Source: Natronoarchaeum mannanilyticum
Lineage (GTDB): Archaea; Halobacteriota; Halobacteria; Halobacteriales; Natronoarchaeaceae
Assembly: GCF_039522665.1 (NCBI RefSeq)
Contig: NZ_BAAADV010000008.1
Span: forward strand, 226,909-290,908
Direction of reading: 5' to 3'
Length of the DNA stretch: 64,000 bases
The translations under genes were made by a program, and so were the position numbers. Shown piece after piece: positions 30,463 through 49,186 of this stretch. Below the pieces are notes generated by a model. It had not been told where the DNA came from, ran no database searches, and was given only the letters and a program-made list of their open reading frames with translations. Each line of letters begins with the position of its first letter. The first letter of the stretch is position 1.

Positions 30463-31043
30463 TGTCCATCCTGAGGGTTGCGCTCAAAGGTAATAAAAGT
30501 ATGGGAGGCATTCTCCAGCCCTATCGAGGGCGCACCAGCGTACACGAGTTCCTGTGGTGTACTCCGATCGACTGCAGATGTGGGGACTCCGCTCTGGTAC
30601 TGCCGATAGCCGTCACCTCCTCAACTGAGTTCAGGGGTATTCGCTTGGTAGTTCTATACCCGCGGTGGTGCGTACGCGTGCCCGAAAAGCAAGGTCACCC
30701 ATGCTGGCATCGTTTCACCAGATCAAACGTCTCTGTGATTGTCTACCAATTGATTCATGTCGAGAAAATCCCCAGATGATGGCCTGATATGTGTATGGCC
30801 GATAGCAGCTCGTTATACGGCATACTCCCACACGCTATGACCTCATCACCCCCACTCAGGAGCTTTGTAGAAAGCTTTTGATTTGACCATGTCGAACAGT
30901 TAGTGTTATATAGAATATCTTTTTACATCACTACTCCTGTAATCTCCCATAGAATGCAAACCGAACAACTCAGTTCGAATTAATCCTGTAAAGTATTCTA
31001 TCGCAAGACATTTATCGAATGGGAGTGAGACAGTTTAGCAAAC
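30463..31043. other. 581-base divergent regulatory region
   Basis: No coding frame of interest. The right half is AT-rich and includes an operator-like repeat (30923-30942) about 100 bases before the Gfo/Idh start, and a half site, TAATCCTGTAAAG, at 30981-30993. The remainder shows nothing I can name. It must hold promoters for the transporter operon and for the oxidoreductase gene. Confidence 0.5.
30923..30942 (-). promoter_or_regulatory. Operator-like repeat, copy 1
   Basis: On the minus strand this reads TTACA-GG-AGTA-GTGA-TGTAA. It matches copies at 33041, 33068 and 48870 with the same arms, the same inner AGTA and the same spacing. It lies about 100 bases upstream of the Gfo/Idh gene and about 460 upstream of the transporter operon. 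An IclR-type regulator from this window is an obvious candidate binder. Confidence 0.6.
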
Positions 31044-32117
31044 ATGGAAAACACGAATCTGACGGTCGGGCTGGTTGGGTTAGGGACCCACGGAGCGAAT
31101 CACGTAAAGATACTCGAGGATCTCGGTCACGAGGTCCTCGGAGTAGATGCAGACACAGCAGCAAGGGAGGCATTTCAGGAACAGTACGATGCAACGACCT
31201 TCGAGAGTCTTGAGGAGTTGTATGAGCAGGATCTGGATGCGGTCATCATATCGACACCGAACAAGTTCCACGAGACAGCTGCCATAGACGCGCTCCAGGC
31301 GGACCACGACGTCCTATTAGAAAAACCGCTCGCGCATAATTTGGAGAGTGCAGAGAATATCGCCGACGTAGCGAACCAAACTGGCAACATCTGTATGGTA
31401 GGGTACCACCACCGCTACCGAAACATCTGTCAAGTCGCCAAATCCTACGTTGAGGATGGCTATCTAGGGGAAATTACGCACATTGATGCTCAGTTTGTCC
31501 GGCGACGCGGAGTTCCCGGTCGTGGGACGTGGTACACATCACAGGAGATCGCAGGGGGCGGCGCACTCATCGATGTCGGTGCACATCTACTCGACCTGCT
31601 TCTTTTCTGGACTGACTGGCCGACGATTACTGACGTGATGGCGACAGCACGATCTGACTTCGGCCAACATGATGACTACTCGTACCTCCACATGTGGGGC
31701 GAGGACGACCGGGGGAAGATGTACGACGTAGAGGATTCAGTTACGGCATTTTGCGAATTCGACTCCGGAATGACCGCGAATATTCAGGTTGCGTGGGCAG
31801 CGAACATGGAGTCGTCGCACAGTTATCGTATTCAGGGAACGGAAGCGGGTATGACAGTAGATATTACGAATACACTTCAGGAAGTCCAACCGGAAGTCGA
31901 TCAACGGAATGATCTGCAACTGTACGAGGCGCGGTCTGGGCGTCGTGACCATTTCGTCAATAGTGAGGTCATTGTTTCATCTAACGATCCGTATCGCGAT
32001 GAGCTGGAGACGTTTCTCGGCGGAGTTCGCTCTAGTGAGCGCCCGGATATGACGAACGTAGAGCAGGCGCTTGATGTGCAACGTGCTATCGACCGAATCT
32101 ACCAAGCGAGTCGATAG
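31044..32117 (+). CDS. Gfo/Idh/MocA-family oxidoreductase
   Basis: The protein has 357 residues. It has a standard nucleotide loop, GLVGLGTHGANH, then IISTPNKFHE and the signature LLEKPLA. The substrate domain contains YHHRYRN and GGGALIDVGAHLLDLLL, a pattern in which the Asp and His would be catalytic. It is a soluble NAD(P)-dependent sugar oxidoreductase and differs from the extended-loop pair at 19621 and 43303. It is followed by the iclR gene 101 bases downstream on the same strand and may share its promoter region. Substrate unknown. Confidence 0.87.
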   Translation: MENTNLTVGLVGLGTHGANHVKILEDLGHEVLGVDADTAAREAFQEQYDATTFESLEELYEQDLDAVIISTPNKFHETAAIDALQADHDVLLEKPLAHNLESAENIADVANQTGNICMVGYHHRYRNICQVAKSYVEDGYLGEITHIDAQFVRRRGVPGRGTWYTSQEIAGGGALIDVGAHLLDLLLFWTDWPTITDVMATARSDFGQHDDYSYLHMWGEDDRGKMYDVEDSVTAFCEFDSGMTANIQVAWAANMESSHSYRIQGTEAGMTVDITNTLQEVQPEVDQRNDLQLYEARSGRRDHFVNSEVIVSSNDPYRDELETFLGGVRSSERPDMTNVEQALDVQRAIDRIYQASR

Positions 32118-32218
32118 TCATCCCTTCGTTGACTCGCTGCGATTTCTCACCGTATTCACTATTATTGTTCGGCCGGCTGGTGAGCATGTTTAACTATCCG
32201 TAGATACTGATAGTGAGT

Positions 32219-33013
32219 ATGCCAGAAGAAACCACCGGGGATCGCGGAAAGACGATCCAGTCTGTCGAGTCAGCACTGGAGGTTGTTGAGGTCATCCGCC
32301 AGAAGGAGCGGGCAGGCGTTACTGAGATAGCGAACGAACTCGATCGCTCCAAGAGTACAGTCCACCACTATGTGACGACACTCGTCAAACATGACTATCT
32401 AGACAAGGTCGAAGGGGAGTATCAGCTCAGTCTGCGGTTTCTCACGCTCGGCGGACAGGTTCGCGAACGCGAGCGGTTGTATCACCTCGGAAAAGACGAT
32501 GTCGAAGAGCTCGCACAGGAAACAGGGGAACAAGCCCGCCTCATCGTCGAACGCAACGGATCCGGCATTACGCTCTATCAGGCGACCGGAGACCGCGTCA
32601 CGGAGCCGATAACGCACGTGGGCAGTATTGAGGAGCTCTACTGTACGGCAGCAGGTAAAGTGTTCTTGGCCGAACTCTCTGATGACGAGCTTGATTCGTA
32701 CCTTGAGGAAGTCTCTTTCACGCCCTACACCGAGAGTACGATTACTGATGCCGACGAACTACGAAGAGAAATAGAAGAAATCAGGGACCGAGGAGTTGCG
32801 TTTGACGATGAAGAACGGTATGAAGGATACCGATGCGTAGCTTCTGCTATCAGCACGGAGGCAAGGGAACTGTTCGGCGCCCTTAGTGTCTCTGCACCGG
32901 TTGAGCGGATGGACAAAGAGAGGTTCCGTACCGCTGTACCAAACCAACTCCAGAACGTTGCTGGTGTTGTCGAGATCAACACGACGTACTCCGAGTGGAC
33001 GGATGTGCTCTGA
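32219..33013 (+). CDS. IclR-family transcriptional regulator
   Basis: From ATG 32219 it has 264 residues; an in-frame GTG two codons earlier is possible. A winged helix-turn-helix at about 15-75 (VTEIANELDRSKSTVHHYVTTL) is followed by the IclR effector domain with YCTAAGKVFLAEL, ERYEGYRCVASAI and GALSVSAP. Such proteins bind palindromic operators as dimers and respond to small sugar acids or aromatic acids. It sits in the middle of the mannan locus, with two operator-like repeats within 75 bases after its stop codon, so local or autoregulation is likely. Confidence 0.92.
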   Translation: MPEETTGDRGKTIQSVESALEVVEVIRQKERAGVTEIANELDRSKSTVHHYVTTLVKHDYLDKVEGEYQLSLRFLTLGGQVRERERLYHLGKDDVEELAQETGEQARLIVERNGSGITLYQATGDRVTEPITHVGSIEELYCTAAGKVFLAELSDDELDSYLEEVSFTPYTESTITDADELRREIEEIRDRGVAFDDEERYEGYRCVASAISTEARELFGALSVSAPVERMDKERFRTAVPNQLQNVAGVVEINTTYSEWTDVL

Positions 33014-33040
33014 AATCATCTGAATTCTCCGACCTCTCAC

Positions 33041-33060
33041 TTACAGGAGTATGTCTGTAA
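33041..33060 (+). promoter_or_regulatory. Operator-like repeat, copy 2
   Basis: TTACA-GG-AGTA-TGTC-TGTAA, 28 bases after the iclR stop codon. It shares the first 11 bases (TTACAGGAGTA) with the minus-strand reading of copy 1. Copy 3 follows with 27 bases from centre to centre, a spacing that would suit side-by-side binding of two dimers. Confidence 0.6.
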
Positions 33061-33067
33061 AATACGA

Positions 33068-33087
33068 ATACAATAGTACGCCTGTAA
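33068..33087 (+). promoter_or_regulatory. Operator-like repeat, copy 3
   Basis: ATACA-AT-AGTA-CGCC-TGTAA. One arm base differs from the other copies. The inner ATAGTAC is shared with copy 4 at 48870, which lies in the other sugar locus. Confidence 0.55.
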
Positions 33088-33422
33088 AAGACGCGCTATA
33101 TTCCTGGCAGAGCATCTTGCCAATGCTGTCGAACGTAATGACGTTAGATCCCGCCTATTTGACCATAGAGAACAAAAGAGAGCGATGAGATCGGCTCATG
33201 GAAAATACTACTACTTCCAAGCATGGTCCAAACAGTTCGCTAGACTGCCCAGAACCAATTCCTACGTAAACTGGCCCCCTTGAGGTGTGTTCCTGCCGAA
33301 AAAACCCAGGAGTGATGAACAAGACATGTTCTACTGTATCAAATACCTATGCTGCTCTCCTTCAGGCATCTCATCCATATCACGACAGTAGATTCTTGTA
33401 GAACCAGTTCGTGGGCTTGTCT

Positions 33423-33881
33423 ATGCAGCGTGGATTAGTCATCGCAGAAGATAGCCAGAAGGGTAGAAAACTACTAAATGAAGCAGCTGCGGCCGCTCGT
33501 GGTAGCGATTGCGGGCTAGTTGTCCTATCCATCATCCATCCAGAGTCCTTTGCAGCTGATGTCGAGACTCTGGAAGCGATCGGCGACGTTGAGGACACGC
33601 ATTATGACGAGAACAACGTATTGGATGCTGAGAGAAACTCCGTTCAGTCTATAGTCGCCGATAGCATTGATGACGGGAATTTGGAAATAACGTACCGTGT
33701 CAGTGTAGCATCGCAAGACGAGCTCGTAAAAGAGGTCCTCAAAACTGCACAAAATACTGAGTGCGATCATCTATTCACCTGCGGTAATCAACGCTCTCCA
33801 ACTGGAAAAGCGATTTTCGGAGATAGTACGCAACAACTTCTTCTTGAGTTTCCCGGCCCGGTGACAGTGGCTCTCGACTGA
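33423..33881 (+). CDS. Universal stress protein (UspA family)
   Basis: From ATG 33423 it has 152 residues; a GTG four codons earlier is in frame. The Rossmann-like alpha/beta fold starts with GLVIAEDSQKGRKLLNEAAA. Near the end, GNQRSPTGKAIFGDSTQQLL resembles the nucleotide-binding G-x2-G-x9-G(S/T) motif. Haloarchaeal genomes carry many such small regulators or chaperone-like proteins. It is 140 bases upstream of the beta-mannosidase gene and may or may not be part of the locus. Confidence 0.8.
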   Translation: MQRGLVIAEDSQKGRKLLNEAAAAARGSDCGLVVLSIIHPESFAADVETLEAIGDVEDTHYDENNVLDAERNSVQSIVADSIDDGNLEITYRVSVASQDELVKEVLKTAQNTECDHLFTCGNQRSPTGKAIFGDSTQQLLLEFPGPVTVALD

Positions 33882-34020
33882 TCCGCTGATCAAGTATACT
33901 CGTACGGACAAGCGAGCCACAACGACAACCAGCCGCTATCAGAGTAATCCTGCAAGAATTACGTAGATCTATATCTCAGGGACCGGTAGCGTTATTATGC
34001 TCTGCTGATACAGTCCAGTT

Positions 34021-36552
34021 ATGCGGGTAGAGTCGTTAAACGGCAGTTGGAAGTTACGCCAGTCGGAGACCGATGATTGGTTCGACGCATCGGTTCCCGG
34101 AGGAGTATACACAGATCTCCTAAATGCGGGCGAAATCCCTGATCCGTACTACGCTGATAATGAACTCGATATTCAGTGGGTCGGGAAGTCTGACTGGGTG
34201 TATAGACGCACCGTGACAATCGACGAGGGCTTCCTTAACGAGGATCGTATACGCTTACGCTGTGCAGGCCTTGACACCGTTGCGACGGTACGCATTAACG
34301 GTGAAGTCGTAGGTGAATCCGCGAATATGCACCGTGAGTACGAGTTTGATGTCGAGAACGCCCTCACATCTGGGGAGAATCAAGTGGAGATCACATTCCA
34401 CTCCCCTGTCGAATATAGTACTCGCCACTCAGAGAATTACGAATATCAGGTCCCAACACTCCGATATCCGGTCGACCAGCCAGGGCGAAACTTCATCCGG
34501 AAAGCTCAGTGCCACTACGGCTGGGACTGGGGACCATGCCTCCCGACTGTCGGCATCTGGCGGGATATCGAACTTCTTGCATACTCCGAACCGCGGATCG
34601 AGTATACGAAGACAGCACAGAACCACGAAACCAACAACGTTGAACTCGACGTGACCGTCGGCCTCGACGCACCGTCTGGCGACGAAGTGTTGATAGCAGC
34701 TGAGGTTGCAGATGCGGCGACGCGTGAAGTCGTCGACGTCGTTGAGGGCCACAACGAGGTCACGGTAGCCCTGGAGGTTTCAGACCCCGATCTCTGGTGG
34801 CCGAACGGGTACGGCGACCAACCGCTCTACGATCTCACCGTAGCCGTCGATGCGGAATCCGTGCTGAAACCGAGCGACACGGACACAGTGACAGCAGACG
34901 GCGGCGTGACGGGGGCCAAATCGTCGATTCCGGAGGATCCATCACACGAACGCTCTACCCGAATCGGTTTCCGAGATCTCGAACTCGTCCGCGAACCGGA
35001 TCAGGGGGATGACGGCGAGTCGTTCACGTTTGAGGTCAACGGGGTCCCGATATTCGCGAAAGGCGCCAACTGGATCCCGGCTGATGCGCTGTACGGGCGG
35101 ATTACGCGCGATCGATATGATTCCTTGCTTGACAGCGCTGTCGATGCCAACATGAATATGATTCGCGTCTGGGGCGGCGGGTACTACGAGCGCGACGGTT
35201 TCTACGAGGCCTGCGACGAGCGCGGATTGCTCGTTTGGCAAGACTTCATGTTCGCGTGTGCGCTGTATCCCAGTGACGAGGAGTATCTAGAATCCGTCGA
35301 GTCAGAGGTCAGGGATCAAGTCCGTCGACTAGCTGACCATCCCTCGATCGCGCTCTGGTGCGGAAACAACGAGGTTGAGATGGGCCTCGAAAGCTGGTTT
35401 GACGATGCCGACGAACTGGAGCGATTGAAGCAGGGTTACGAGACGCTGTTCTACGACGTAATCGGCGGTGCCGTCGCCGAAGAGGACGATACCCGGACGT
35501 ACTGGCCCGGGTCGCCGTCGAGCGGCACCGGAATGCAAGATCCCTATCAGACGAATAAGGGAGATATTCATTACTGGGATGTCTGGCACGACGGCGCAGA
35601 TTTCGAAGAGTACGAGACGGTCGACCCGCGGTTTGTGTCGGAATTCGGCTACCAGTCGTTCCCCTCAGTCGACGCTCTCTCGTCGGTGCTCCCTGACGAC
35701 GAGCTCAACCCAACTGCGCCGTTGATGGAGCACCACCAGCGCAATGAAGGTGGAAATCGGACGATTCTCCAGAGGATGGCCGCATCGTTCCGAATCCCGT
35801 TTAGCTTCGAGAACTTCGTTTATCTCAGTCAGGTACAGCAGGGTCTCGCGATGAAGGTCGCTATTGAACACTGGCGACGGCTAAAGCCAGAGTGTATGGG
35901 GACGCTGTACTGGCAGTTGAACGACCTCTGGCCCTGTGCGTCGTGGTCGTCTATCGAGTACGGCGGCAATTGGAAAGCGCTCCAGCACGTCAGTCGGCGC
36001 ATCTACGCACCGGTCTTGCTCTCGACGAGGACGGGCGACGATGGTGTCGAGATTTGGCTTACGAACGACGAACGAGAATCCCTCTCTGGGGAAGTCACCG
36101 TTGAGGCCTACACCTTCGACGGAGAACTCGTAGACGAGGTTGGCAAGAGCGTCTCTGTTGAAGCGCTCGAAAGTGACTGCGTCACAACTGTCAATGTAGA
36201 TCAGTTGATCGACGGCGTCTCTCGAGAAGAAGCGTTCCTCAGCGTCAAGTTTGACGGGAGTGACGAGACGTACCCTGCGTTCGAGTTCTTTGAGGAGTAC
36301 AAACATCTCGAGCTACCGGAGCCGGATATCGACATCGACGTCGATAAGAACGAGGTGACGATCCAGACGGATGCCGCGGCACTGTTCGTCGAATTCGACG
36401 TTCCGATTGACGGCCGGTTCTCGGACAACTACTTCCACCTGACACCTGACGAGGAGCGGACGATTACGTTCGACCCCACAGAATCCATCGAAGAGCTCGA
36501 ACAGAGACTCACTGAGAGTCTATCGGTAAACCACCTCCGCAAAACGTACTAA
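34021..36552 (+). CDS. GH2 beta-mannosidase
   Basis: The protein has 843 residues, the usual length for the family. The N-terminal sugar-binding domain starts LNGSWKLR and contains HYGWDWGPCLPTVGIWRDI, typical of beta-mannosidases. The catalytic TIM barrel has RVWGGGYYERDGFYEACDE, acid/base Glu451 in WCGNNEVEMG and nucleophile Glu541 in FVSEFGYQSFPS. There is no signal peptide, so it acts inside the cell and removes mannose from the non-reducing ends of imported beta-manno-oligosaccharides. A Ser/Thr/Gly-rich insert of about 30 residues near residue 285-310 (SDTDTVTADGG) interrupts the region before the barrel. Confidence 0.95.
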   Translation: MRVESLNGSWKLRQSETDDWFDASVPGGVYTDLLNAGEIPDPYYADNELDIQWVGKSDWVYRRTVTIDEGFLNEDRIRLRCAGLDTVATVRINGEVVGESANMHREYEFDVENALTSGENQVEITFHSPVEYSTRHSENYEYQVPTLRYPVDQPGRNFIRKAQCHYGWDWGPCLPTVGIWRDIELLAYSEPRIEYTKTAQNHETNNVELDVTVGLDAPSGDEVLIAAEVADAATREVVDVVEGHNEVTVALEVSDPDLWWPNGYGDQPLYDLTVAVDAESVLKPSDTDTVTADGGVTGAKSSIPEDPSHERSTRIGFRDLELVREPDQGDDGESFTFEVNGVPIFAKGANWIPADALYGRITRDRYDSLLDSAVDANMNMIRVWGGGYYERDGFYEACDERGLLVWQDFMFACALYPSDEEYLESVESEVRDQVRRLADHPSIALWCGNNEVEMGLESWFDDADELERLKQGYETLFYDVIGGAVAEEDDTRTYWPGSPSSGTGMQDPYQTNKGDIHYWDVWHDGADFEEYETVDPRFVSEFGYQSFPSVDALSSVLPDDELNPTAPLMEHHQRNEGGNRTILQRMAASFRIPFSFENFVYLSQVQQGLAMKVAIEHWRRLKPECMGTLYWQLNDLWPCASWSSIEYGGNWKALQHVSRRIYAPVLLSTRTGDDGVEIWLTNDERESLSGEVTVEAYTFDGELVDEVGKSVSVEALESDCVTTVNVDQLIDGVSREEAFLSVKFDGSDETYPAFEFFEEYKHLELPEPDIDIDVDKNEVTIQTDAAALFVEFDVPIDGRFSDNYFHLTPDEERTITFDPTESIEELEQRLTESLSVNHLRKTY

Positions 36553-36665
36553 CGGGCGCTACTCCGACAACAGACGGGACGAAATCGTCACGGCGTTGCC
36601 GTCCGTCTTCATTCTTGAGAGGGACTAACCGTGGACAACTGCTACTTTGATTACGTGTTGTAGAG

Positions 36666-37661
36666 CTATTTGCTTTCGGCAACTGGGCTCCGCTCGTCGG
36701 CAGACGGGTCGGTCGCGTCTAGCAGGCCTCGAATGTATCCGCTGGCGAATAACTTCCCGGAGAGGTGGTATCCAGGAGTTGAATTGTCTTCACCGGCCAT
36801 CGTCGGAACGTGGTCCGGTCGGATTGGACCGTCGAAGCCGATATCGCGATACGCCTCAATGGCGGCAGCCATGTCAGTCGGCCCGTCATCGTGCCACATC
36901 TCGGTGAAGCTGTCGGGATCTCCCTCGACGTCGCGGAAGTGGACGAAATTGATCCGGTCAGCAAACTGGCGGATCGTCGATGGGATGTCAGCACCCATCG
37001 CCGAAAAATTGCCTTGGCAGAATGTGATACCGTTGTACTGTGAATCGACGATATTGAGTACACGCTTGTACGCCTCTGGTGAGTTGATAATGCGCGGCAT
37101 CCCGCGAACGTCTCCAGTTGGCGGGTCGTCGGGATGCAGTCCGAGTTTTACGCCTGCCTCTTCGGCGACTGGAACGACGCGTTCGAGAAAGTATTCTAAG
37201 TTCTCCCAGAGGTCGTCTGCCGTTGTCGAGCGTGCTACAGCAGGTGGGGGTCCACGCCGCATCTGTTTGTCGCTGTACGAGGTAGTAAGCGAATTGCCTC
37301 GACTTGGCGTCGTGATGGAAGTCCGAGCCCACCGTAGCCCCGCCATCCAGTCGTAACACACAACATTGACATCAAGTTCGCCGAGGTTCCGCAGGAATCG
37401 ACAGAATTCGTCAATCTCGGCGTCTCGACCCTCCTTCGCAAGTCGCGTAGTATCGGTCAACGGTACACTTCCCTCGAACGCGGCGGGTTCGATCCCATGA
37501 TCGCGGTACCGGTTGACAATGCGGAGTAGTTCGTCGTACTTCGACGGGCGGCGGCCATTGCCGAGTTCGAGTGAGTGATACACCGCGTTTTCGACACCGA
37601 TCTGCTTAGCCTTATCCCACCGTTCGTCAGGAGTCGGCGGGAGGACGAGGGAAAGTTGCAT
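36666..37661 (-). CDS. UxuA-like mannonate dehydratase
   Basis: The protein has 331 residues, slightly shorter than bacterial UxuA (about 390). The TIM-barrel blocks fit: LGLHPDDPP, GITFCQGNF (Cys metal ligand), INFVHFRDVEGD, EMWHDDGPTDM and GPIRPDHVPTM. Mannonate dehydratase converts D-mannonate to 2-keto-3-deoxygluconate, which feeds the haloarchaeal semi-phosphorylative Entner-Doudoroff route. In a mannan locus this links mannose oxidation to central metabolism. It is convergent to the beta-mannosidase gene and divergent from the GH5 gene. Related family members with other sugar-acid substrates exist, so the exact substrate is probable only. Confidence 0.87.
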   Translation of the reverse strand: MQLSLVLPPTPDERWDKAKQIGVENAVYHSLELGNGRRPSKYDELLRIVNRYRDHGIEPAAFEGSVPLTDTTRLAKEGRDAEIDEFCRFLRNLGELDVNVVCYDWMAGLRWARTSITTPSRGNSLTTSYSDKQMRRGPPPAVARSTTADDLWENLEYFLERVVPVAEEAGVKLGLHPDDPPTGDVRGMPRIINSPEAYKRVLNIVDSQYNGITFCQGNFSAMGADIPSTIRQFADRINFVHFRDVEGDPDSFTEMWHDDGPTDMAAAIEAYRDIGFDGPIRPDHVPTMAGEDNSTPGYHLSGKLFASGYIRGLLDATDPSADERSPVAESK

Positions 37662-37802
37662 TCAAATCCTCTGACGAAAGAGGCTTCCTCCGGTAGCTTA
37701 GTTCTTGTCCTGTCGTCGCGTCCGATCCTGTCGAGATGGGGCTTCCGTTCCGGTTTGCTAAAGTTTATTATTAAGGTCGATGATTCCGAGACGCACCATC
37801 CC

Positions 37803-39020: not shown

Positions 39021-39145
39021 CGGCACGGTTCTAAGGTAGCACAACGGGCAGCCGTCCATAGATCGGCCCTCGATATTTATTCTGGAATCTCATCCCCAAG
39101 CTTTAATAGTAATATTCATCCATTATCAATCGGAGTCTGGAAACA

Positions 39146-40474: not shown

Positions 40475-41050
40475 ATTAGGCTAGCCCGGGCCTGCGTAGA
40501 ACAACGAGGAGATTACAGAATCGATCGAAGAGGGGGTTACAGAAATTGCCCCCCTCGTTAATCCCCTTGAGTAGTGTTTTGGTTGTGACTATGGTCAACC
40601 AGTCTTAGAACGTGGATCAAAGAGAGCCAGAAGGAAATACCCTCAACAAAACAGCAGGTGTTAGTGGCGACCATTACATCTGGAGCCAAGGAAAGATATT
40701 TATATGAGCGCATTAAATAATATGATGCGTCAGTTGGAGTCTTACCAGGCATACCTGACGGAGTAATACGCGGACTGTGATCCGTGGGCGGACTCTCATC
40801 CGCCACCGATTCACAGCTTATGCCATAATTTTTCCTAGCTACTGGACTAGTTATCTTGCCTAGTAGTACGTGTAGCCCGGAATCGTCCTTCAAAGACGAG
40901 CGGGCTGACGTGGAGCGCGGCCACTTCTACGTGACGCAATCCTCAGCTACGGAAATACAGAATTATCATATTCTCCGAGATCGTGTTGGCGAACTCAATC
41001 AGAAGGCGTAAACTCCATGATCTGAGGGTGACTCAACAGACGCTCGCGGA
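40475..41050. other. Intergenic region before the integrase gene end
   Basis: About 575 bases without a supported gene. It holds a terminator-like hairpin near 40530-40556 and, further right, a 10-base sequence (TACTGGACTA at 40840-40849) that recurs at 42293-42302 on the other side of the integrase gene. Confidence 0.4.
40530..40556 (+). terminator. Terminator-like hairpin after GH5-CBM gene
   Basis: GAGGGGG at 40530-40536 pairs with CCCCCTC at 40550-40556 across a 13-base loop, 56 bases after the stop codon. A T-rich stretch does not follow directly, so the role in stopping transcription is only likely from position. Confidence 0.4.
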
Positions 41051-42244
41051 CTACTCGTTACTAAACACGTCGCTCCCAACCTCGGAGAGTTCGCTCGCTT
41101 CGATGTGGCTGTACATCTCGCTCGTCGTCGACGGATCGGCGTGCCGTAGCGCCCGCTGGGCAGCGGACGCTCCTTCCTCGCGGTAGTACATCTCACCGGC
41201 GCCACGACGGGCGCCATGCAGCGTGAGATAGTCTTTCGAGTCGTCGCTGGTGTCGACATCAGCCGACTTGCTTAACCGCTTGAGGAGGGTTCGCCCACCG
41301 GGTGTGGTTAGTGCTGGCGGCACGCAATCATACTCGCAGTAGGCGTTTAGCACGTCGTCGTAGGGATCAAGTAGCTTGTCGATATCGTCGTGGCCGCGCT
41401 GTTCGAGCTGGTCGCGAAGCGCGTTCCACAATGACGGTCGATGCGAGGTCGGAAACAGCGGCCACGCGTCGGTAGCGGGGTCAAGTACGTCGCGCCAGCG
41501 TTCGAGGGCCGGGATCGGCTTGTCGGTCAGCGGCGCCTGTTCCCACTCCTGGCTTTTGCCGTAGATGGAGATCGTTGCCGCCTCAAGATCGAGCGCGCTC
41601 CACGGCGCCCCGTTTCGGCCGTCGCGGTCGGTGGCCGGGTGCGACAGGACCTCGGCACCGCGAATGCCGGAGTAGCCAAGCAGGTAGCACAACGCCCGAT
41701 CTCGGACCTCTGTGGTGGCGTCGCTACCGTTCTCGTCGATCGCCGCGTGGGCCCGCTCGTCGACGTACTGTAGTAGCGTCTGGCGCTGAGACGGCGACCA
41801 GAACTGTTGGTCCTTCGACCCGCCACTTGGTCGGTCGGGCATCGCGTTCTTGACGACCGCCGCTTTGGCCGGATTCTCGTCGAGGAACTCCCACTCGCGA
41901 CAGTACGTGAGGTACGCCGAGACGAGATTGTAGTACGTCCACGCCGACGCGCGGGTGATGCCGCTGTCGGCGTCGTGAGCCTTGACGCGCCGATTGAGGT
42001 ACTGTGCCCACCGACCGATCGTCTGTGAGTCCAGATCCTCCAGATACTCGACGCCGTGATCGCGCGTCCAGTCGATCCACTTCGGAACAGTCGTCGCGAG
42101 CTGGCTCGCGTACGCGCCCGAGCGCTCGCCGGTCTCTGGATCCTCGGTTTTTGCTTTGTCGCCGAGGAACTCGTCAAGCGGCGCGTCGAGTGGGGTTTTC
42201 TCGCCGTCATCCCCAGGGTTAGCGTCTGCAGTTCCAAGTTCCAT
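41051..42244 (-). CDS. Tyrosine recombinase/integrase
   Basis: The protein has 397 residues. An N-terminal SAM-like core-binding domain (about 40-160) precedes the catalytic domain. The active-site residues are visible: Arg in GYSGIRGAEV (about 194), Lys in the beta hairpin IYGKSQEW, His-x-x-Arg in LHGARRGAGE (about 343), His in ALRHADPSTT and the nucleophile Tyr in SEMYSHIE (about 378). It is an XerC/D-like haloarchaeal integrase and should cut and rejoin DNA at a specific site. No tRNA gene or clear att pair lies beside it. It sits between the mannan locus and the galactoside locus. Confidence 0.93.
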   Translation of the reverse strand: MELGTADANPGDDGEKTPLDAPLDEFLGDKAKTEDPETGERSGAYASQLATTVPKWIDWTRDHGVEYLEDLDSQTIGRWAQYLNRRVKAHDADSGITRASAWTYYNLVSAYLTYCREWEFLDENPAKAAVVKNAMPDRPSGGSKDQQFWSPSQRQTLLQYVDERAHAAIDENGSDATTEVRDRALCYLLGYSGIRGAEVLSHPATDRDGRNGAPWSALDLEAATISIYGKSQEWEQAPLTDKPIPALERWRDVLDPATDAWPLFPTSHRPSLWNALRDQLEQRGHDDIDKLLDPYDDVLNAYCEYDCVPPALTTPGGRTLLKRLSKSADVDTSDDSKDYLTLHGARRGAGEMYYREEGASAAQRALRHADPSTTSEMYSHIEASELSEVGSDVFSNE

Positions 42245-42554
42245 GTTCTATGCGTACCCGACAGCGTCGACACACTAAAAACTACTTAGGTTTACTGGAC
42301 TAAGCGAAAGTAAGTGGCTATTAGTAGATTTCTCCCGATATCGTCAGACTCGGGGCCTCTAACACACATATGAGTCCCAGAAACAGCCTATAAACCCAAT
42401 AATGATATACAAAATTCTGATGTCTGAAGTATTCGGTACTATTTCGGCGAATCCTTATGGCGGTGTCTCGAAGCTTCAGCGATGGAAAAACGCTCCAAAT
42501 CGATATAGAGTACCTAGTTCCACCAACTACGAGATTTCACAAACGCTGTCCTCT
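42245..42554. other. Intergenic region upstream of integrase
   Basis: AT-rich DNA of about 310 bases, with no gene seen. It begins with the integrase promoter region, which includes TACTGGACTA at 42293-42302, a copy of the sequence at 40840-40849. Confidence 0.35.
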
Positions 42555-43252
42555 CGGTAGTGTTCAGATTAGTTGATTCCATGCGAAGGCGAACGCTTGG
42601 AGTCACTTTTCGGAGGTGGTTACTTCGGCGTTGCTGAAACAGTTTGAGAACTGGTTGGTTCGGCATTTTAGTTCTGGAAAGACACGTTCGACGCTGTTCC
42701 GATTCCCGTGGCGTTCGTACTGGAATCGGAGGCCGTGGCGGTGAAGTACTGCATGCAGCCACGGCCCAGAATCGACGAGAAAGAGTGCGTCATCGACGAG
42801 ATGTTTCTCGCGGAGTTCCGCAAGGAACATCTCGGTAATCGCTTGATTTCTCGTCGGAACAAGCTTCACGTGCAGCAATCGGTTCGTTTCAGGATCGACC
42901 GCAGCGTACAGCCAGAACTGCTCGTCATTCAGTTGGATCACGGTCACGTCAACTGCGACGTGATCCGGCTCGGCGCCGTCACGGAGCTGTAACTCTGCTT
43001 TCTGCACCCAGTTGTGCACGGTCGCTCAACACCGTTCGACACCCAGCTTATCGAGAATAGAGATGGTATCCGACAGTGATAGTCCCGCCAAATGAAGTCG
43101 GATACCGAACTCCATCGCTGGCTCGGGTGTCGCCTCTCGCTCCACAAAATCTAACTCGAAGCAGTCGGTATCTTCGATGAGGCGGGCGATTTCTGGCATG
43201 GACACCTAGAAATCACACCGCCTCGTTCTTCAGATCTTATCTGAACACCGCC
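42555..43252 (-). mobile_element. Dead IS6-type (ISH) insertion sequence
   Basis: About 698 bases bounded by imperfect inverted repeats: GGTAGTGTTCAGATTAG at the left and GGCGGTGTTCAGATAAG (minus strand) at the right. It encloses a broken transposase gene. I could not find a clear target-site duplication; the flanks GTCCTCTC and CTCTCTCG are similar but not identical. It lies 50 bases before the galactoside locus. Confidence 0.75.
42563..43199 (-). pseudogene. IS6-type transposase with internal stops
   Basis: The frame runs from ATG 43199 through FVEREATPEPAMEFGIRL and LSLSDTISIL to an in-frame TGA at 43026-43028, just before VHNWVQKAEL. It continues with VAVDVTVIQL, FLVDSGPWLH and SVERVFPELK (the DDE residues). 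A second TGA at 42603-42605 replaces the Trp usual before LQAFAFAWNQL. With two stops it cannot make an intact transposase. Confidence 0.82.
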
Positions 43253-43302
43253 CTCTCTCGAACCCAAAGGACTTTGACGCGATCTCCCGACCAGATATCC
43301 GG

Positions 43303-44409
43303 ATGACGTACTCAGTTGCGGTCATAGGCACGGGTGCGGAACCGGACGACCCTGGTGGAGACGGGTATGCGATGGCGTACCACCACGGGGGCGGCTACGA
43401 GAAACACGCCGACTGTGAGCTCGTCGCGTGTGCGGACATCGTCCCCGAGAACGCGCGGGCGTTCGCCGGCGAGTTCGGAATCCGCGACGACGCGATCTTC
43501 GAGGATTACGGCGAAATGCTCACGGCCGTCGAACCGGACATCGTCTCGGTCTGCGTGCCGCCGACGCTCCACGCCGAGATCGCGATCGATTGCATCAAGA
43601 GCGGCGTCGTCGACGCCGTCCACTGCGAGAAGCCGATGGCCGACTCATACGGCGGCGCGCGGCGCATGACAGAAGCGGCCGCCGATAGGGGGGTCCAGCT
43701 GACGTTCAACCACCAGCGGCGGTTCAGCGACGCGGTGCGGACGGCGAAGGATTTGCTTGACTCGGGCGAGATCGGCGGCCTAGAGCGCGTCGAGTTCGCC
43801 GCGCCGGTCGGGCTCCTCGACTACGGCTCCCACTCGTTCGATCTCTGTAATTACTTCAACGACGAGCGATCCGCGGAGTGGGTCATGGGACAGATCCATT
43901 ATGATGAGGAGAACGTCCTGTTCGGGACTCACAACGAGAACCAAGCCATCGTCCACTGGGAGTACGAGAACGGCGTCCACGGCGTCGGCGCGTCCGACAG
44001 TACCGGAACTGGCGGCCCCGCGGCCGGGATCTCCTGTCACAACCGACTGGTCGGCTCCGATGGTGTCATCGAAGTCGGCCCCGAGAGCGAGGACGGAGAC
44101 GAGGATCTTCCACCCCTTCGAATCCGACGCAATGGCGAGGACTGGAAACCGATCAAGACCGAAGACGGGCTCCACGGCTGGGAGTTCATCGACCGCGCGG
44201 TCGCCGAGAACGTCCGCTGTCTGCAGCGCGGCGAGACGCCTGAACTCGCCGCCGAAAACGCTCTGAGCGCGACCGAGCTGATCTTCGGCGCGTGGGAGTC
44301 GTCGCGCCGACGGGGGCGGGTGGATCTGCCGCTCGAGATCGACGGGAATCCGCTCCGAGAGATGATCGATACCGGGGAGTTGACGCCGGAACCGGCGGGT
44401 GATGACTGA
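43303..44409 (+). CDS. Gfo/Idh/MocA-family oxidoreductase with extended nucleotide loop
   Basis: The protein has 368 residues and is a paralogue of the gene at 19621. Shared features are the extended loop after VAVIGTG (here AEPDDPGGDGYAMAYHH), CELVACADIVPEN, SGVVDAVHCEKPMAD and a C-terminal RRRGRVDLPLE. It is a soluble NAD(P)-dependent sugar oxidoreductase. The stop overlaps the start of the TIM-barrel gene by one base (TGATG), so the two proteins are made together and probably act in sequence. Codon use is much more GC-rich than in the 19621 paralogue. Confidence 0.87.
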   Translation: MTYSVAVIGTGAEPDDPGGDGYAMAYHHGGGYEKHADCELVACADIVPENARAFAGEFGIRDDAIFEDYGEMLTAVEPDIVSVCVPPTLHAEIAIDCIKSGVVDAVHCEKPMADSYGGARRMTEAAADRGVQLTFNHQRRFSDAVRTAKDLLDSGEIGGLERVEFAAPVGLLDYGSHSFDLCNYFNDERSAEWVMGQIHYDEENVLFGTHNENQAIVHWEYENGVHGVGASDSTGTGGPAAGISCHNRLVGSDGVIEVGPESEDGDEDLPPLRIRRNGEDWKPIKTEDGLHGWEFIDRAVAENVRCLQRGETPELAAENALSATELIFGAWESSRRRGRVDLPLEIDGNPLREMIDTGELTPEPAGDD

Positions 44410-45158
44410 TGACCGACCTGTCCGTCTGTGTCGAGATGGTGTACGACGGCCCGTTTCCCGAACGGATTCAGCGCGCGGCCAACGCCGGCGTTGACGCGAT
44501 CGAGTTCTGGGACTGGCGCGAGAAGGACCTCGATGCTGTCGAAGCCGCGGCCGCCGACGCCGGCGTCGACATCGTCGGCTGCACGGCGGGCGGCGTCCTG
44601 ACGGATCCCGACGCCACCGACGCCGCCGTCGGGACGATCCGCGAATCGATCGACACCGCGGCGTCGATCGGCTGTCCGACGCTCATCGTGACGACCGGTC
44701 CCGATCAGGCGGGACTGGATCGCGCGACGCAGCGGGAGAACATCGTCGACGTGCTCTCCGCCGTCGCGCCGGCTGCCGTGTCTGCCGGCGTGACGCTGGC
44801 CCTCGAACCGCTGAACACGGCCGTCGACCACCCCGGATACTATCTCTCGACCGCCGCCGAGGGGTTCGACATCGTCGATGCGGTCGGATCGTCGCACGTG
44901 AACCTCCTGTACGATGTCTACCATCAGCAGGTGACCGAGGGGAACGTCATCGCGACGCTCACCGAGAACGTCGAGGATGTCGGGCACGTCCACATCGCGG
45001 ACGTTCCCGGCCGCGCGGAGCCCGGAACGGGCGAACTGAACTACGAGAACGTGCTGGCCGCGATCAACGACGCCGGCTACGAGGGCTACGTCGGCTGCGA
45101 GTTCTCGCCGACCGGTGACCCGGACGAGGCGGTCGCGGAGATCCTGAATCTGACGTAA
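44409..45158 (+). CDS. Hydroxypyruvate isomerase-like TIM-barrel protein
   Basis: The protein has 249 residues in the AP-endonuclease-2-like TIM barrel fold. Blocks are VDAIEFWDWREKDL, TLALEPLNTAVDHPGYYL, VNLLYDVYHQQVTEGN, VGHVHIADVPGR and VGCEFSPTG. The Glu, Asp, His and Glu of these blocks are the usual metal and catalytic ligands. These match Hyi-type isomerases more than the 21966 protein does. Overlap with the Gfo/Idh gene suggests it isomerises or cleaves that enzyme's product. The exact substrate is unknown. Confidence 0.85.
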   Translation: MTDLSVCVEMVYDGPFPERIQRAANAGVDAIEFWDWREKDLDAVEAAAADAGVDIVGCTAGGVLTDPDATDAAVGTIRESIDTAASIGCPTLIVTTGPDQAGLDRATQRENIVDVLSAVAPAAVSAGVTLALEPLNTAVDHPGYYLSTAAEGFDIVDAVGSSHVNLLYDVYHQQVTEGNVIATLTENVEDVGHVHIADVPGRAEPGTGELNYENVLAAINDAGYEGYVGCEFSPTGDPDEAVAEILNLT

Positions 45159-45192
45159 CCGCCGCCCAGTTCGTTCGCAGAGGTTGCAGTTG

Positions 45193-45287
45193 GTGTGGAC
45201 TAATAGTGGATGGGGGCGTCGGGTTTACGCCCATATCCCTGTAATTCAGTCGATCGGTTCCGACCCCCATTTACTATTAGTTTACAC
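45193..45287. repeat. 24-base inverted repeat in convergent intergenic region
   Basis: Left arm 45193-45216 (GTGTGGACTAATAGT then GGATGGGGG) and right arm 45264-45287, read on the minus strand (GTGTAAACTAATAGT then AAATGGGGG), match in 20 of 24 bases across a 47-base spacer. All four mismatches are GG versus AA. The core ACTAATAGT also appears at 48843-48851. It lies between the ends of the convergent isomerase and beta-galactosidase genes in a 320-base gap with no other gene. Confidence 0.6.
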
Positions 45288-45478
45288 AAATCGGTCGATT
45301 TTGCTAGGGGAGTTAAATCGTCTTGGACTGCAGTCTGCGGTCAGGAGCGCCTCGCAGGTCTCCTACTGCAATCGGACAAGCACGTCGACCGGAGAGCGGA
45401 CGCGTACCCGGATACGCCGAACGCGTGCAGACAGTGTCCGTGATCCGTGCGTCAGCGCTGTCTCGATGTGATCTCGTC

Positions 45479-48400
45479 TCAGTCTGTCTGGGGCGGTTCG
45501 ATGGGGGTGTCGCCGTCTGCGGTATTGGCGTCCAGCTCGCGGGGCAACTGCTCGCGCGCGAGTGCGGACGGGTCAGCGGCGGCGTCAAACGGATGGAAGT
45601 CGAACGAGAACGAGACCGGCTCGGGCTGAACGCGGTACTCCGGGAGCGGCTTGACCGGCGTCCCACCGACGCCGGAGACGGCGACGTCGGCGAACAGCGT
45701 CGTCCCGTCCTTCTCAACCAGTTCCTCGAGGCGACTCGCCGACGCGAGGTTCTCGTACTGGTCGAGTCGAACGTTAAGCGGCTGGTCGCCGGATACCACG
45801 ACGCCGACATCCTCGCTCGTCACGCTGACCCAGCGCACGTCGGTCTTGTTACCGTTATCCGAGGGAACGCGGTACGGGACGAACTGGTCGTCAATCCCGC
45901 CGGCGTAGCGTCCGATCTCGCTGCCGGTCTTGCGGTCGGGGTAGGTTTCCTCGGGTCCGCGCCCGAACCACTCGATCGACGAGAACGACGCCGGAAGATC
46001 GAACTGGACGCCGAGTCTTGGCAGCCACGACTCGAGCGTATTTCGGAGCGTATCCGTGGGATCGACGTCGACTGTCGTCGTGACGGCGCCGTTCCCGAAC
46101 ACCTCGTGCCGGTAGCGCAGATCGAACAGCGCGTCGCCGTCGGGATTCAGGGCCACCGACTCGGCAATCAGGCGAACGGCCCCCGGAACTGGGCGTTTAA
46201 CGGAGTAGTCGAGCAGTTCGTGCCGGAGGTCGTCCAGCCCGAGCGCCCGCCACTCCGAGGCGTTGTCGTACCCCCACTCGGTGTCGCTGTCGAGGTGCTG
46301 CTCGTTCGCCAGCGGGGCCCGAAACGCACCGAACAGTGGCCCGTCGATCGCTACGACGTCGCCGTCGTACTCGAACTCGCAGAACACCCCGCGATCCGCG
46401 TCGAAGCGGTACGCAAACCGATCGCCGCGGAGTTCGATCGTCGATCCGGTTTCCGAGACTGCGATCGGGGGCTGTTCCGCGGGGGATTCGGGTGAGGGCT
46501 CGGGCATATCGAAGGGCACCTCGAACTGCTCAAACCCGATCTCGTGGCCCGCTGTCGCCCAATCGGTATCCTCGGCAAGTTCGAGTCGGATCGTCAGATG
46601 ACACACGGAGCCGACGTCCACGTCCGGGTGATTGAGCGGAACGATGACGCCCCGCTCGTGGCCCGGGGGAACGTCGAGGTCGAGCACGCCCGACTGTACG
46701 ACGGCGCCGTCGACCGCGAGCTCCCAGGTCGCATCGAACGCGCTCAGGTTGGTGAAATCGTAGTGGTTCGTGACCGTGAGGATCCCCTCCTCGAGCGAAA
46801 CGGCGTCGGCGGTGAACGGCTGCTGGGTCTTTTTCACCTGACGCAGTTCAGGCTGGGGTGTCAGGTCCGCGAACACCGTCCCGTCGAGCAGGAACGGATC
46901 GTCGTCGATCCACCACTCCTCGCCGTCGGCGACGGGGACGGCATCGCCGGCGAGCGTCTGGTTGCACCACTCCCAGATGAACCCGCCCTGGAGGCCGCTG
47001 ATCTCCCGGATCAGCTCCCAGTACGCGTCCTGAAGCCCGAGACTGTTACAGAGCGCATGGCCGTACTCGCCCATCACGAGCGGCCGGTCGTCGACGGCGT
47101 CGTGCTGGACGAGCGTGTGCGGAACCGGATATCGTGGACCGGAGACATCGGTGAACGGCGCCGTTCCGGTCATGTTCTCGTGGTACTTGTCGTACGGCGC
47201 AGGGCCCGATCCCTGGTGGTAGACAAATCGGGTGCCGTCTCGATCGCGGGCGTACGACGCCATCTTCTCGTGGGGGGGGCCCTCGCCAGCCTCGTTGCTC
47301 GTACTCCAGGCGACGATTGACGCGAAGTTCTTGTGGTGTTCGACCATCCGCTCGAACCGCTGGAAGTACGAGTCGTGGAACGTCGGGGCCTTGTGGACGA
47401 AGTCCATGTCGAAGTGCGTCTCGACGTTCGCCTCGTCGACGACGTACATCCCCAGCTCGTCGGCGAGTTCGTAGATCTCGAGGTCGTTCGGGTAGTGAGA
47501 GGTTCGGACGGCGTTGATGTTGTTCCGCTTCAGCATGCGGAACTCCTCGAGGGAGCGCTCATACGGGACGGTTCGTCCCGTCTCGGGATCGTGCTCGTGG
47601 CGGTTCATTCCGCGGAACGTCACCGGTTCCCCGTTCACGAGTACCTGTCCGTCCTCGATCTCGAACTCCCGGAACCCGACCCGCTGTGGGATCGCTTCGC
47701 GGACCGTTCCGTCCGGCCCGCGCAGTTCCAGGACGAGATCATAGAGATTCGGATGTTCGGCCGACCACTGGGCCGGTCGCTCGACGGTCGTTTGCAGGCG
47801 TGTCTCGACGCCGTCGGCCAGGTCGACAGACTCGCGGAGCGTCGTCACCTCGTCTCCGGCGTCGTCGAACAGTCGCCCGATGAGCGTCCACCCGTCGTCG
47901 CGCTCGGCGTCAACGCGGGCCTCGTCGGCGGAGAGTTCGGCGTCCACGGTCAGTGTAGCGTCCTCGTAAGCGCCGTCGAACGACGTCCGGACGAAGTAGT
48001 CTCGGAGGTGCACCGCCGGCTTCGAGTAGAGGTAGACGCTCCGGAAGATCCCGCTGAACCGGATCATATCCTGTGTTTCGAGGTAGCTTCCGTCGGAGAA
48101 GCGGAACACCTGAACGGTGATCGTGTGCTCGCCGCCTGGATCGAGCTTCTCGGTCACGTCGAACTCCGAGGGCGTCATCGACCCCTGGTCGTAGCCGACG
48201 TACTCGCCGTCCATCCAGACGAAAAACGCGGACTTGACGCCCTCGAAGTGAAGATAGTTGCTGCGGGCGCCGTCCCAGTCGTCCGGGACGTCGACGGTGC
48301 GGCGATACGTCCCGACGGGGTTGAACTCCTCGGGAACGTTCGGCGGCTCGGGTTCGGTCTCGATCTCGGGAATCCGTTCCCACGTCAGGGCGTGGTTGCG

Positions 48401-48739
48401 GTAGATTGGTCTGTCATAGCCCTCGAGCTGCCAGACGCTCGGAACCGGGATCGAATCCCAGTTCGCGTCCGCGCCGAGCCGCTCGGGAACGTCGGACGGG
48501 GCCTCCGCCCAGCAGAACGACCATTCGCCGTTCAGAAGTTCGAAGTACTCCGACTCGCTCCATCTGGACTCCGGTTCCGACAGTCTGTTTCCGGCGTTCC
48601 GCGCCGCCGCCGTCGACGCGTACGGAACGGTCGGCGCATGCACGGCTTCGACGTTCTCCCCGAGCTGTGACGGATTTTCGATATAATCTGCTACCGCCGC
48701 AAGTTGGTCTGGCTTTCTGGACACGGGTACTCGTAGCAT
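45479..48739 (-). CDS. GH2 beta-galactosidase (LacZ-like)
   Basis: Taking ATG 48739 (MLRVPVSRKPDQL) gives 1086 residues; ATGs at 48754 and 48751 are possible. A TTTTTTTATAT stretch at about 48752-48763 would serve as TATA box for a leaderless transcript. Domain order is LacZ-like: NPSQLGENVEAVHAPTVPY, sugar-binding domain (PVPSVWQLEGYDRPIYRN), barrel with NRHEHDPETGR, acid/base Glu near 483 in STSNEAGEG and nucleophile Glu near 558 in VMGEYGHALCN, then the C-terminal beta-sandwich. No signal peptide, so it acts inside the cell on imported galactosides. It is divergent from the DgoD gene, and the shared region holds operator-like copy 4. Confidence 0.93.
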   Translation of the reverse strand: MLRVPVSRKPDQLAAVADYIENPSQLGENVEAVHAPTVPYASTAAARNAGNRLSEPESRWSESEYFELLNGEWSFCWAEAPSDVPERLGADANWDSIPVPSVWQLEGYDRPIYRNHALTWERIPEIETEPEPPNVPEEFNPVGTYRRTVDVPDDWDGARSNYLHFEGVKSAFFVWMDGEYVGYDQGSMTPSEFDVTEKLDPGGEHTITVQVFRFSDGSYLETQDMIRFSGIFRSVYLYSKPAVHLRDYFVRTSFDGAYEDATLTVDAELSADEARVDAERDDGWTLIGRLFDDAGDEVTTLRESVDLADGVETRLQTTVERPAQWSAEHPNLYDLVLELRGPDGTVREAIPQRVGFREFEIEDGQVLVNGEPVTFRGMNRHEHDPETGRTVPYERSLEEFRMLKRNNINAVRTSHYPNDLEIYELADELGMYVVDEANVETHFDMDFVHKAPTFHDSYFQRFERMVEHHKNFASIVAWSTSNEAGEGPPHEKMASYARDRDGTRFVYHQGSGPAPYDKYHENMTGTAPFTDVSGPRYPVPHTLVQHDAVDDRPLVMGEYGHALCNSLGLQDAYWELIREISGLQGGFIWEWCNQTLAGDAVPVADGEEWWIDDDPFLLDGTVFADLTPQPELRQVKKTQQPFTADAVSLEEGILTVTNHYDFTNLSAFDATWELAVDGAVVQSGVLDLDVPPGHERGVIVPLNHPDVDVGSVCHLTIRLELAEDTDWATAGHEIGFEQFEVPFDMPEPSPESPAEQPPIAVSETGSTIELRGDRFAYRFDADRGVFCEFEYDGDVVAIDGPLFGAFRAPLANEQHLDSDTEWGYDNASEWRALGLDDLRHELLDYSVKRPVPGAVRLIAESVALNPDGDALFDLRYRHEVFGNGAVTTTVDVDPTDTLRNTLESWLPRLGVQFDLPASFSSIEWFGRGPEETYPDRKTGSEIGRYAGGIDDQFVPYRVPSDNGNKTDVRWVSVTSEDVGVVVSGDQPLNVRLDQYENLASASRLEELVEKDGTTLFADVAVSGVGGTPVKPLPEYRVQPEPVSFSFDFHPFDAAADPSALAREQLPRELDANTADGDTPIEPPQTD

Positions 48740-49186
48740 ATCTACGGTCATCATATAAAAAAAGCGCGGTAGCTGACCGGGTTCGGGGTGCGGGCGCAAG
48801 CCGTGTCCGCACCGGGACTTCCGCTGCGATCGCTCTAGATCCACTAATAGTACATCCTGCAAAGTTCTTTTACAATAGTACCTATGTAATTTCTTGGGCG
48901 AGGCTCCGCGGGTTGTACACTATCAGTAAACACGGTGTTCGTGCGGGTGACGTGGTCGCCTTCTACAGTGCGCAAACATTTTGACGGCCTGCGTGGAAGC
49001 GACAGGTGCAGAACGCTACCGGACAGTTGATCCGACCGCCGTCGCCGAGACAAGACGACGCACCCGGCAGGGTGGACCGGTCGACGCGCCCGACAGAGCG
49101 ATCGAACAGCGTCGCCGGGACGGTCGCCGCCGACGCGTCCGTAGGTCGGATCAGTCCGGCGAGAACGACGGTGATCAAGTGTACCC
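48740..49186. other. Divergent regulatory region of the galactoside locus
   Basis: About 447 bases between the beta-galactosidase and galactonate dehydratase genes. It contains operator-like copy 4, an ACTAATAGT element at 48843-48851 and a CATCCTGCAAAG half site beside it. The right half (48985-49186) is GC-rich without a supported gene. Confidence 0.5.
48870..48889 (+). promoter_or_regulatory. Operator-like repeat, copy 4
   Basis: TTACA-AT-AGTA-CCTA-TGTAA, with both arms and the AGTA core identical to copy 2. It lies about 130 bases upstream of the beta-galactosidase start and 300 upstream of the DgoD start, 15 kb away from the other copies and in the other sugar locus. Confidence 0.6.

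Follow-up and report, generated by a model that had tools for sequence, protein, structure and literature searches.

In a 64,000-nucleotide window of the Natronoarchaeum mannanilyticum genome (contig NZ_BAAADV010000008.1, positions 226,909 to 290,908 of the forward strand), a mannan locus and a galactoside locus carry copies of one 20-bp palindromic dyad. This dyad, whose sequence is (A/T)TTACA-N4-TA-N4-TGTAA(A/T) with its flanking bases, stands beside haloarchaeal genes for IclR-family regulators more often than expected by chance and is kept between related genomes; the dyads, their tie to IclR genes and their conservation are established. From sequence comparison we give an even chance to the reading that the dyad is the operator of haloarchaeal IclR loci as a class and is read by the IclR proteins. 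A palindromic operator linked to IclR genes is, as a kind, already known. What is new here is the word itself, its centre of 10 bases with an invariant TA, and the genus-wise way in which paralogues share it.

Four copies had been listed in a preliminary description of the window and all of them were present. The sites at 30923-30942 (minus strand), 33041-33060 and 48870-48889 (both plus) match the pattern given there, TTACANNAGTANNNNTGTAA, exactly, and the site at 33068-33087 (plus) has one mismatch, in an arm base. The first precedes the Gfo/Idh-iclR genes, with about 100 bp between it and the ATG at 31044. In the gap that separates iclR from the Usp/beta-mannosidase genes, the second stands 28 bp beyond the iclR stop and is followed 27 bp further on, start to start, by the third. 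The last is found 297 bp upstream of dgoD (plus), in the gap separating that gene from lacZ (minus). That such a set is far beyond chance was borne out by 10 strand matches to TTACANNAGTANNNNTGTAA at up to three mismatches, against a shuffled mean of 0.83 (largest 6). The sites had also been called intergenic: none of the four overlaps a Pfam-matching gene, but the 48870 copy overlaps one mechanical open reading frame (48406-48984, plus), which runs opposite lacZ and was outside the Pfam scan. Fourteen positions had been taken as fixed; the inner AG is common to the four sites but variable elsewhere, and the 14-position pattern was dropped for a dyad with 12 fixed positions, TTACA-N4-TA-N4-TGTAA. 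A fifth copy, missing from the earlier list, stands past the 3' end of lacZ at 45225-45244 (plus; TTACGCCCATATCCCTGTAA), one arm mismatch from the dyad, and brings the window total to five copies at no more than one mismatch.

The genome (3,565,702 bases in 10 contigs) contains 12 exact TTACA-N10-TGTAA sites and 16 dyads at up to one mismatch; the reversed pattern, used as a control, gave 0. Twelve of the 16 sites are on the window's own contig, C8, which accounts for 306 kb of the 3.57 Mb. The original 14-position pattern also matches three sites beyond the window (C6:18225, C8:93791 and C8:174559). The genome-wide scan that the preliminary description had called for revealed neither a random spread nor many copies in coding regions. 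In nine further genome stretches 10 of 11 sites fell outside gene models, which are rough outside annotated records (acidic open-reading-frame filter), and the site at C1:1372228 shares 10 bases with the beginning of a model that has an uncertain start. All 12 exact genome sites have TA at positions 10-11, with positions 8-9 variable. Among 118 distinct exact sites from the sampled loci the N4 spacers hold 0.1-0.2 bit per position, asymmetrically. The base preceding the arm is usually A or T (the flanking count includes overlapping loci).

The tie to IclR genes was measured in a family set of nine related genomes with 58 IclR genes, whose loci amount to 207 kb. These genomes have 72 exact sites, of which 32 are no more than 1.5 kb from an IclR_C match; 3.6 were expected, and the maximum of 2000 random placements in the same contigs was 11 (contig extents were taken from outermost coordinates). 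Seen from the genes, 25 of the 58 have an exact site within 1.5 kb, and 34 have a dyad with at most one mismatch within 1 kb. The 58 loci together hold 51 dyads at up to one mismatch; for 59 control palindromes with permuted arms and a TA or AT centre the mean was 0.14 and the maximum 2. When the same loci were scanned for any palindrome with 5-bp arms and gaps of 0-17, TTACA-N10-TGTAA ranked first (32 found, 0.04 expected); the runners-up had GC-rich arms at spacings typical of codon periodicity. By position, 20 family-set sites stand before iclR, 27 after it and none inside the gene. Across 59 genomes of the class the number of exact TTACA sites follows the number of IclR genes (Spearman 0.66); these genomes hold 231 such sites and 2 of the reversed pattern, and 10 genomes without IclR genes (E up to 1e-10) contain 2 sites altogether. 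The earlier view of an operator-like element tied to IclR-type regulators is supported by the above-chance association of sites with genes and by genome counts that track IclR number.

Other haloarchaeal genera carry beside their IclR genes a variant with one arm base changed, TAACA-N4-TA-N4-TGTTA. Several IclR-bearing genera have few or zero TTACA sites, and TAACA is rare in most TTACA-rich genomes. In a scan of A/T-rich arms in three groups TAACA-N10-TGTTA came first in one and joint first and joint second in the others, and its matches keep the central TA. Thirty-eight pooled loci held 10 exact TAACA sites and no exact TTACA site; the corresponding figures for the 58 loci of the family set were 1 and 32. 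The 59 genomes contain 68 TAACA sites, against 1 exact site for the reversed TAACA pattern, and both forms taken together follow IclR number with a Spearman coefficient of 0.85. Only 2 of the 42 genomes with at least three IclR genes have neither form. The TTACA/TAACA ratio differs among the 38 genomes with at least three sites (X2 of 152 versus a maximum of 75 in 5000 permutations). The variant was seen at loci L228, L229, L233, L238, L218, L221, L223, L242, L245, L246, L136 and L016. Tandem TTACA dyads stand upstream of a gene that looks acetolactate-synthase-like (L112 5229/5279, L113 5112/5161 and L114 91/140) in three genomes of a genus that mostly uses TAACA.

Annotated records gave a similar picture in Haloferax. 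On plasmid pSVX82-2 of Haloferax lucentense, read in five stretches covering 236 of 285 kb, a single dyad follows each of the four annotated IclR genes, 113-468 bp beyond its end; two of these dyads are exact and two have one mismatch. Two further matches have no IclR gene nearby: that at L275 681 is exact, and that at L037 24301 is broken at its centre. One of the four IclR dyads belongs to a dgoD-gfo6-aldolase-kdgK2-beta-galactosidase cluster, whose IclR we take by context to be GacR, and the dyad of this GacR-like locus is kept, with changed spacers, in all four Haloferax records (also Haloferax alexandrinus, Haloferax denitrificans and Haloferax massiliensis). At up to one mismatch the reversed pattern gave 1 match versus 32 for the dyad in Haloferax denitrificans and 4 versus 39 in Haloferax massiliensis; the single contig scan for Haloferax loci returned two. 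No xac locus was identified in 18 stretches of Haloferax denitrificans, which were compared with a small protein set only. Intergenic stretches of about 600-1150 bp that lie past iclR, contain the dyad and have no annotated gene (L037 14741-15889 and 3336-4252, L274 6358-6971, L272 46174-46857) could hold unannotated transcripts.

Each of the two loci in the window is associated with its own regulator. IclR1, in the mannan locus (32219-33013, plus), has both the IclR helix-turn-helix (PF09339, 41.8 bits, cut-off 22) and the IclR_C domain (PF01614, 128.6 bits, cut-off 24). IclR2, at the end of the galactoside locus (63165-63878, plus), is a second, divergent IclR-family regulator that passes the same cut-offs (PF09339 29 bits, PF01614 39.2 bits), although HTH_20 (37 bits) scores above PF09339 on its helix-turn-helix. 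Among 391 genomes searched, five others have IclR1 orthologues at 88-92% identity, and in all five a dyad (at most one mismatch) stands just past iclR; Haloterrigena salifodinae also carries one past iclR. In three of the five orthologous loci the corresponding position holds a degenerate equivalent of the 30923 site (two mismatches). The Gfo/Idh promoter dyad was not found in the other two at up to two mismatches, nor in Haloterrigena salifodinae at up to three.

IclR2 occurs in 6 of the 391 genomes, N. mannanilyticum included, and all six have an exact dyad about 140-420 bp upstream of the dgoD orthologue, where it is the sole palindrome (6-bp arms, one mismatch) common to the six upstream regions. 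LacZ orthologues (58-59%) in three genomes without IclR2 have no dyad, at up to two mismatches, within 1.5 kb. The 48870 site is best seen as a putative dgoD-side operator. In three plasmid loci whose DgoD is about 84% identical, no dyad (up to two mismatches) stands upstream of dgoD, and a one-mismatch dyad lies further on, past the gene; no IclR2 orthologue is evident among their annotated genes. In the window lacZ runs opposite to dgoD, and in two relatives (L079 and L080) the two genes are co-directional with a single dyad between them; against this arrangement, the presence of a dyad on each side of lacZ in the window suggests a local inversion.

If IclR proteins read the dyad, the proposed reader would be the IclR-family regulator encoded in the same locus, binding as a dimer in such a way that each TTACA arm is contacted by one winged helix-turn-helix; the invariant TA step at the centre may allow a bend. 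In the window, the sites at 30923, 33041 and 33068 would serve IclR1 in the control of its own operon and of the mannan genes, and the 48870 site would serve IclR2 in that of the dgoD-SDR-ABC genes; activation or repression would be the outcome, judging from known haloarchaeal IclR activators. Since the spacers carry almost no code, IclR paralogues within one cell may cross-bind.

Known systems resemble this arrangement in part. According to the accessible text of PMC8222616, bacterial IclR boxes fall into group 1 (GKTYCRYW3-4RYGRAMC) and group 2 (TGRAACA-N1-2-TGTTYCA), and IclR factors generally regulate themselves plus one or two adjacent operons. The dyad is like those boxes in being a palindrome beside IclR genes, often in tandem, and the bacterial regulators likewise act on themselves and on adjacent operons; it is unlike them in its arms, in the 10 bases between 5-bp arms and in its fixed central TA, and by inspection it fits neither consensus. 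The bacterial boxes were dropped as candidates for the 58 IclR loci, where group 1 (W3) and group 2 (N1 or N2) each gave 0 matches at up to one mismatch; a looser group 1 pattern, GTTYCRNNNNNYGRAAC, gave 18 matches in a count made without a control. The haloarchaeal activators XacR, GacR, RhcR and MscR belong to the same protein family and to the same kind of locus, that of sugar and sugar-alcohol catabolism, and the accessible part of PMC11519228 contains no operator sequence for them. In the part of PMC6085418 that was available, the xacR promoter is described as having a negative semi-palindromic element covering the WW motif. The same part presents the semi-palindromic control elements of haloarchaeal sptA, which are short promoter palindromes, one with a 10-base centre (TTCTTN10AAGAA), but have other arms and no stated IclR link. 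No description of the dyad was found in the literature, whose coverage excluded most subscription papers, the XacR paper among them; part of the finding may be in print.

Several observations weigh against a reader encoded beside the dyad. Of the 72 exact sites in the family set, 40 lie farther than 1.5 kb from any IclR gene, and 24 of the 58 IclR genes lack a dyad within 1 kb. Around IclR2 of the window, a distance of 1.5 kb includes no dyad at up to two mismatches. Twenty-four distant IclR1 homologues (42-68%) hold only four exact dyads, most of them not beside iclR, and one exact dyad (L265, outside the family set) lies inside an IclR reading frame. On pSVX82-2 three of the four dyads stand between convergent genes with no annotated promoter. 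Dyads of the TTACA form show no AT-rich peak at a fixed distance, and a set promoter position was dropped for this form. Most dyad-adjacent IclRs have in common the recognition-helix core K-S-T/S-V-H/Y-x-H/Y-L-x-T-L, which speaks for reading by IclR proteins, but the same core is present in IclRs without a dyad.

Another palindrome of the mannan locus resembles the bacterial IclR boxes more closely than the dyad does, a further point against IclR1 as the reader of the dyad. This 17-bp motif, GTTTSA-N5-TSAAAC, is common to the promoter regions of the Gfo/Idh and Usp genes and gave 23 matches (up to two mismatches) in 13 intergenic stretches of seven loci. The mean for 120 arm permutations, the motif itself included, was 1.2, in a control that is not independent, the motif having been found in the stretches where it was counted; the second-ranked permutation (21 matches) reads largely the same kind of sequence. 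In the window an exact copy (30712-30728, plus) and one with two mismatches (30881-30897, plus) stand in the Gfo/Idh promoter region, and no copy at up to two mismatches was found on the Usp side. The motif also occurs in loci L013, L014 and L104-L107 and is not a feature of the family set's remaining IclR loci (1 match at up to one mismatch in 58 loci). It is close to the GTT-11-AAC form of bacterial group 1 boxes, as given in the accessible text of PMC8222616, and may be the true IclR1 box; the dyad would therefore be left to another reader.

The arm types speak in the same direction. If a local IclR read the dyad, arm type would be expected to follow IclR orthology, and this was not what we observed. 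The comparison drew on 157 distinct IclR proteins (64 with TTACA, 26 with TAACA and 67 without a site within 700 bp) and on a tree with 109 labelled IclRs, reached after 20 loci, most chosen for a known adjacent site, had been added. The majority type of its own genus predicted the arm type in 73 of the 75 cases with at least two labelled companions, and the nearest IclR homologue from another genus did so in 58 of 90, where guessing the commoner type gives 64. The 19 arm-type changes on the tree are fewer than under free shuffling (mean 27, minimum 20) but close to the result of shuffling genus blocks, which gives 21 on average and 8 at the least. Within the recognition helix, no residue tells the arm types clearly apart (52 of 1000 permutations were as high); one position outside that helix does so (7 of 1000, with relatedness ignored). 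Operator bases were thus not found to change with the recognition residues of the adjacent IclR, and the covariation test, meant to show that the local IclR reads the dyad, turned out against that reading. In favour of IclR readers stand the single dyad at each annotated IclR gene of pSVX82-2, the lack of any other palindrome common to the IclR2 loci, and the few genomes with both arm types.

Since arm type follows genus and not the neighbouring IclR, a shared reader is a serious rival: one conserved DNA-binding protein other than the adjacent IclR would bind all dyads of a genome and oversee its IclR loci, and the IclRs would use boxes of their own. We regard such a protein as possible though rather unlikely. 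It would account for an arm type that stays the same within most sampled genera, even where the IclR paralogues are very different (TAACA in 9 of 9 in genus g11 and 4 of 4 in g26, TTACA in 13 of 13 in Haloferax and 24 of 25 in g2) and that switches between close IclR homologues of different genera; spacers almost without code, the 40 of 72 sites away from IclR genes and a second motif suited to IclR1 fit it as well. However, no candidate protein was found, and the dyads track IclR genes rather than catabolic genes at large: on the Haloferax plasmid the annotated hut, paa and acs genes all lack a dyad within 5 kb. Some genomes also hold both arm types (2:3 in G020, 3:2 in G041, 4:2 in G021 and 5:2 in G061). 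Part of the genus effect is due to selection, because g10, g11, g20 and g26 were sampled for having IclR genes and few TTACA sites; the 59-genome counts are free of this. We propose, tentatively, that a large part of haloarchaeal IclR loci use one genome-wide operator word, the second letter of which switches by genus, in step across paralogues with only about one third of their residues in common.

The preliminary description had gone further and let one regulator, IclR1 or IclR2, join the two loci, 15 kb apart, into a single mannan and galactoside regulon. Both regulators are within the window, the half-site TACAATAGT is common to the copies at 33068 and 48870, and TTACAGGAGT is common to those at 30923 and 33041. 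Nevertheless, the five other genomes with IclR1 orthologues keep the dyad, and the 63165 regulator was not found there; the five other IclR2 genomes keep the dgoD-side dyad, with no homologue of the 32219 protein above 42% found. N. mannanilyticum alone among the 391 genomes has both, and the sites do not depend on one common regulator across genomes. Nor is the dyad private to the two loci: it stands beside many other IclR loci of this genome and its relatives, and the spacers vary freely. We therefore consider a single regulon very doubtful. In genomes where one of the two regulators was not found, the other still has its dyad. The sign shared by the mannan and galactoside loci thus has independent causes, and most likely, as far as sequence can tell, each locus has its own copy of a family-wide operator. 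It is equally improbable that the dyad is a recombination, insulation or transcription-end element beside iclR genes, for which the larger number of family sites past the iclR 3' end (27, against 20 before it), the several dyads between convergent genes and the invariant central dinucleotide could be cited, given the 20 sites on the 5' side, the position kept between orthologous loci and an RNA hairpin that, read from the sequence, would be weak, since its arms are only 5 bp long, its centre has 10 bases and a fixed run of T is absent.

The gene content of the window is that of two catabolic loci. On the mannan side a Gfo/Idh oxidoreductase gene in front of iclR (31044-32117, plus) and IclR1 are followed by Usp, a GH2 beta-mannosidase-type enzyme (34021-36552, plus; PF22666, PF17753 and PF17786), UxuA, GH5 and CBM35. 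This locus is syntenic with plasmids of Haloterrigena salifodinae and Haloterrigena turkmenica. Then comes the integrase that had been described between the two loci, which has a PF00589 match. Beyond it lie a second Gfo/Idh, a TIM-barrel protein, the LacZ-type GH2 beta-galactosidase (45479-48739, minus, with a likely ATG at 48739), the galactonate-dehydratase-type enolase DgoD (49187-50341, plus; its best plasmid matches are mostly annotated dgoD), an SDR, ABC transporter genes, a second DgoD-like enolase and IclR2. Elsewhere, dyads were seen in front of three RdfA-like genes (L117 7661-7680, L119 5391-5410 and L129 5660-5679) with no IclR gene within about 3 kb, two of which are followed by an SMC-related gene (named by resemblance to an annotated pair in L275).

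The dyad provides a concrete, testable candidate operator for a large archaeal regulator family and makes regulon prediction possible in many haloarchaea. If the genus-wise operator word is real, a single master reader, or IclR paralogues that share an operator and cross-bind, would give such a code, and either would amount to a global layer of catabolic control, one not described in the literature found. The finding also poses the questions of how IclR paralogues with one operator word in a cell stay specific, and why that word changes by genus and not by regulator.

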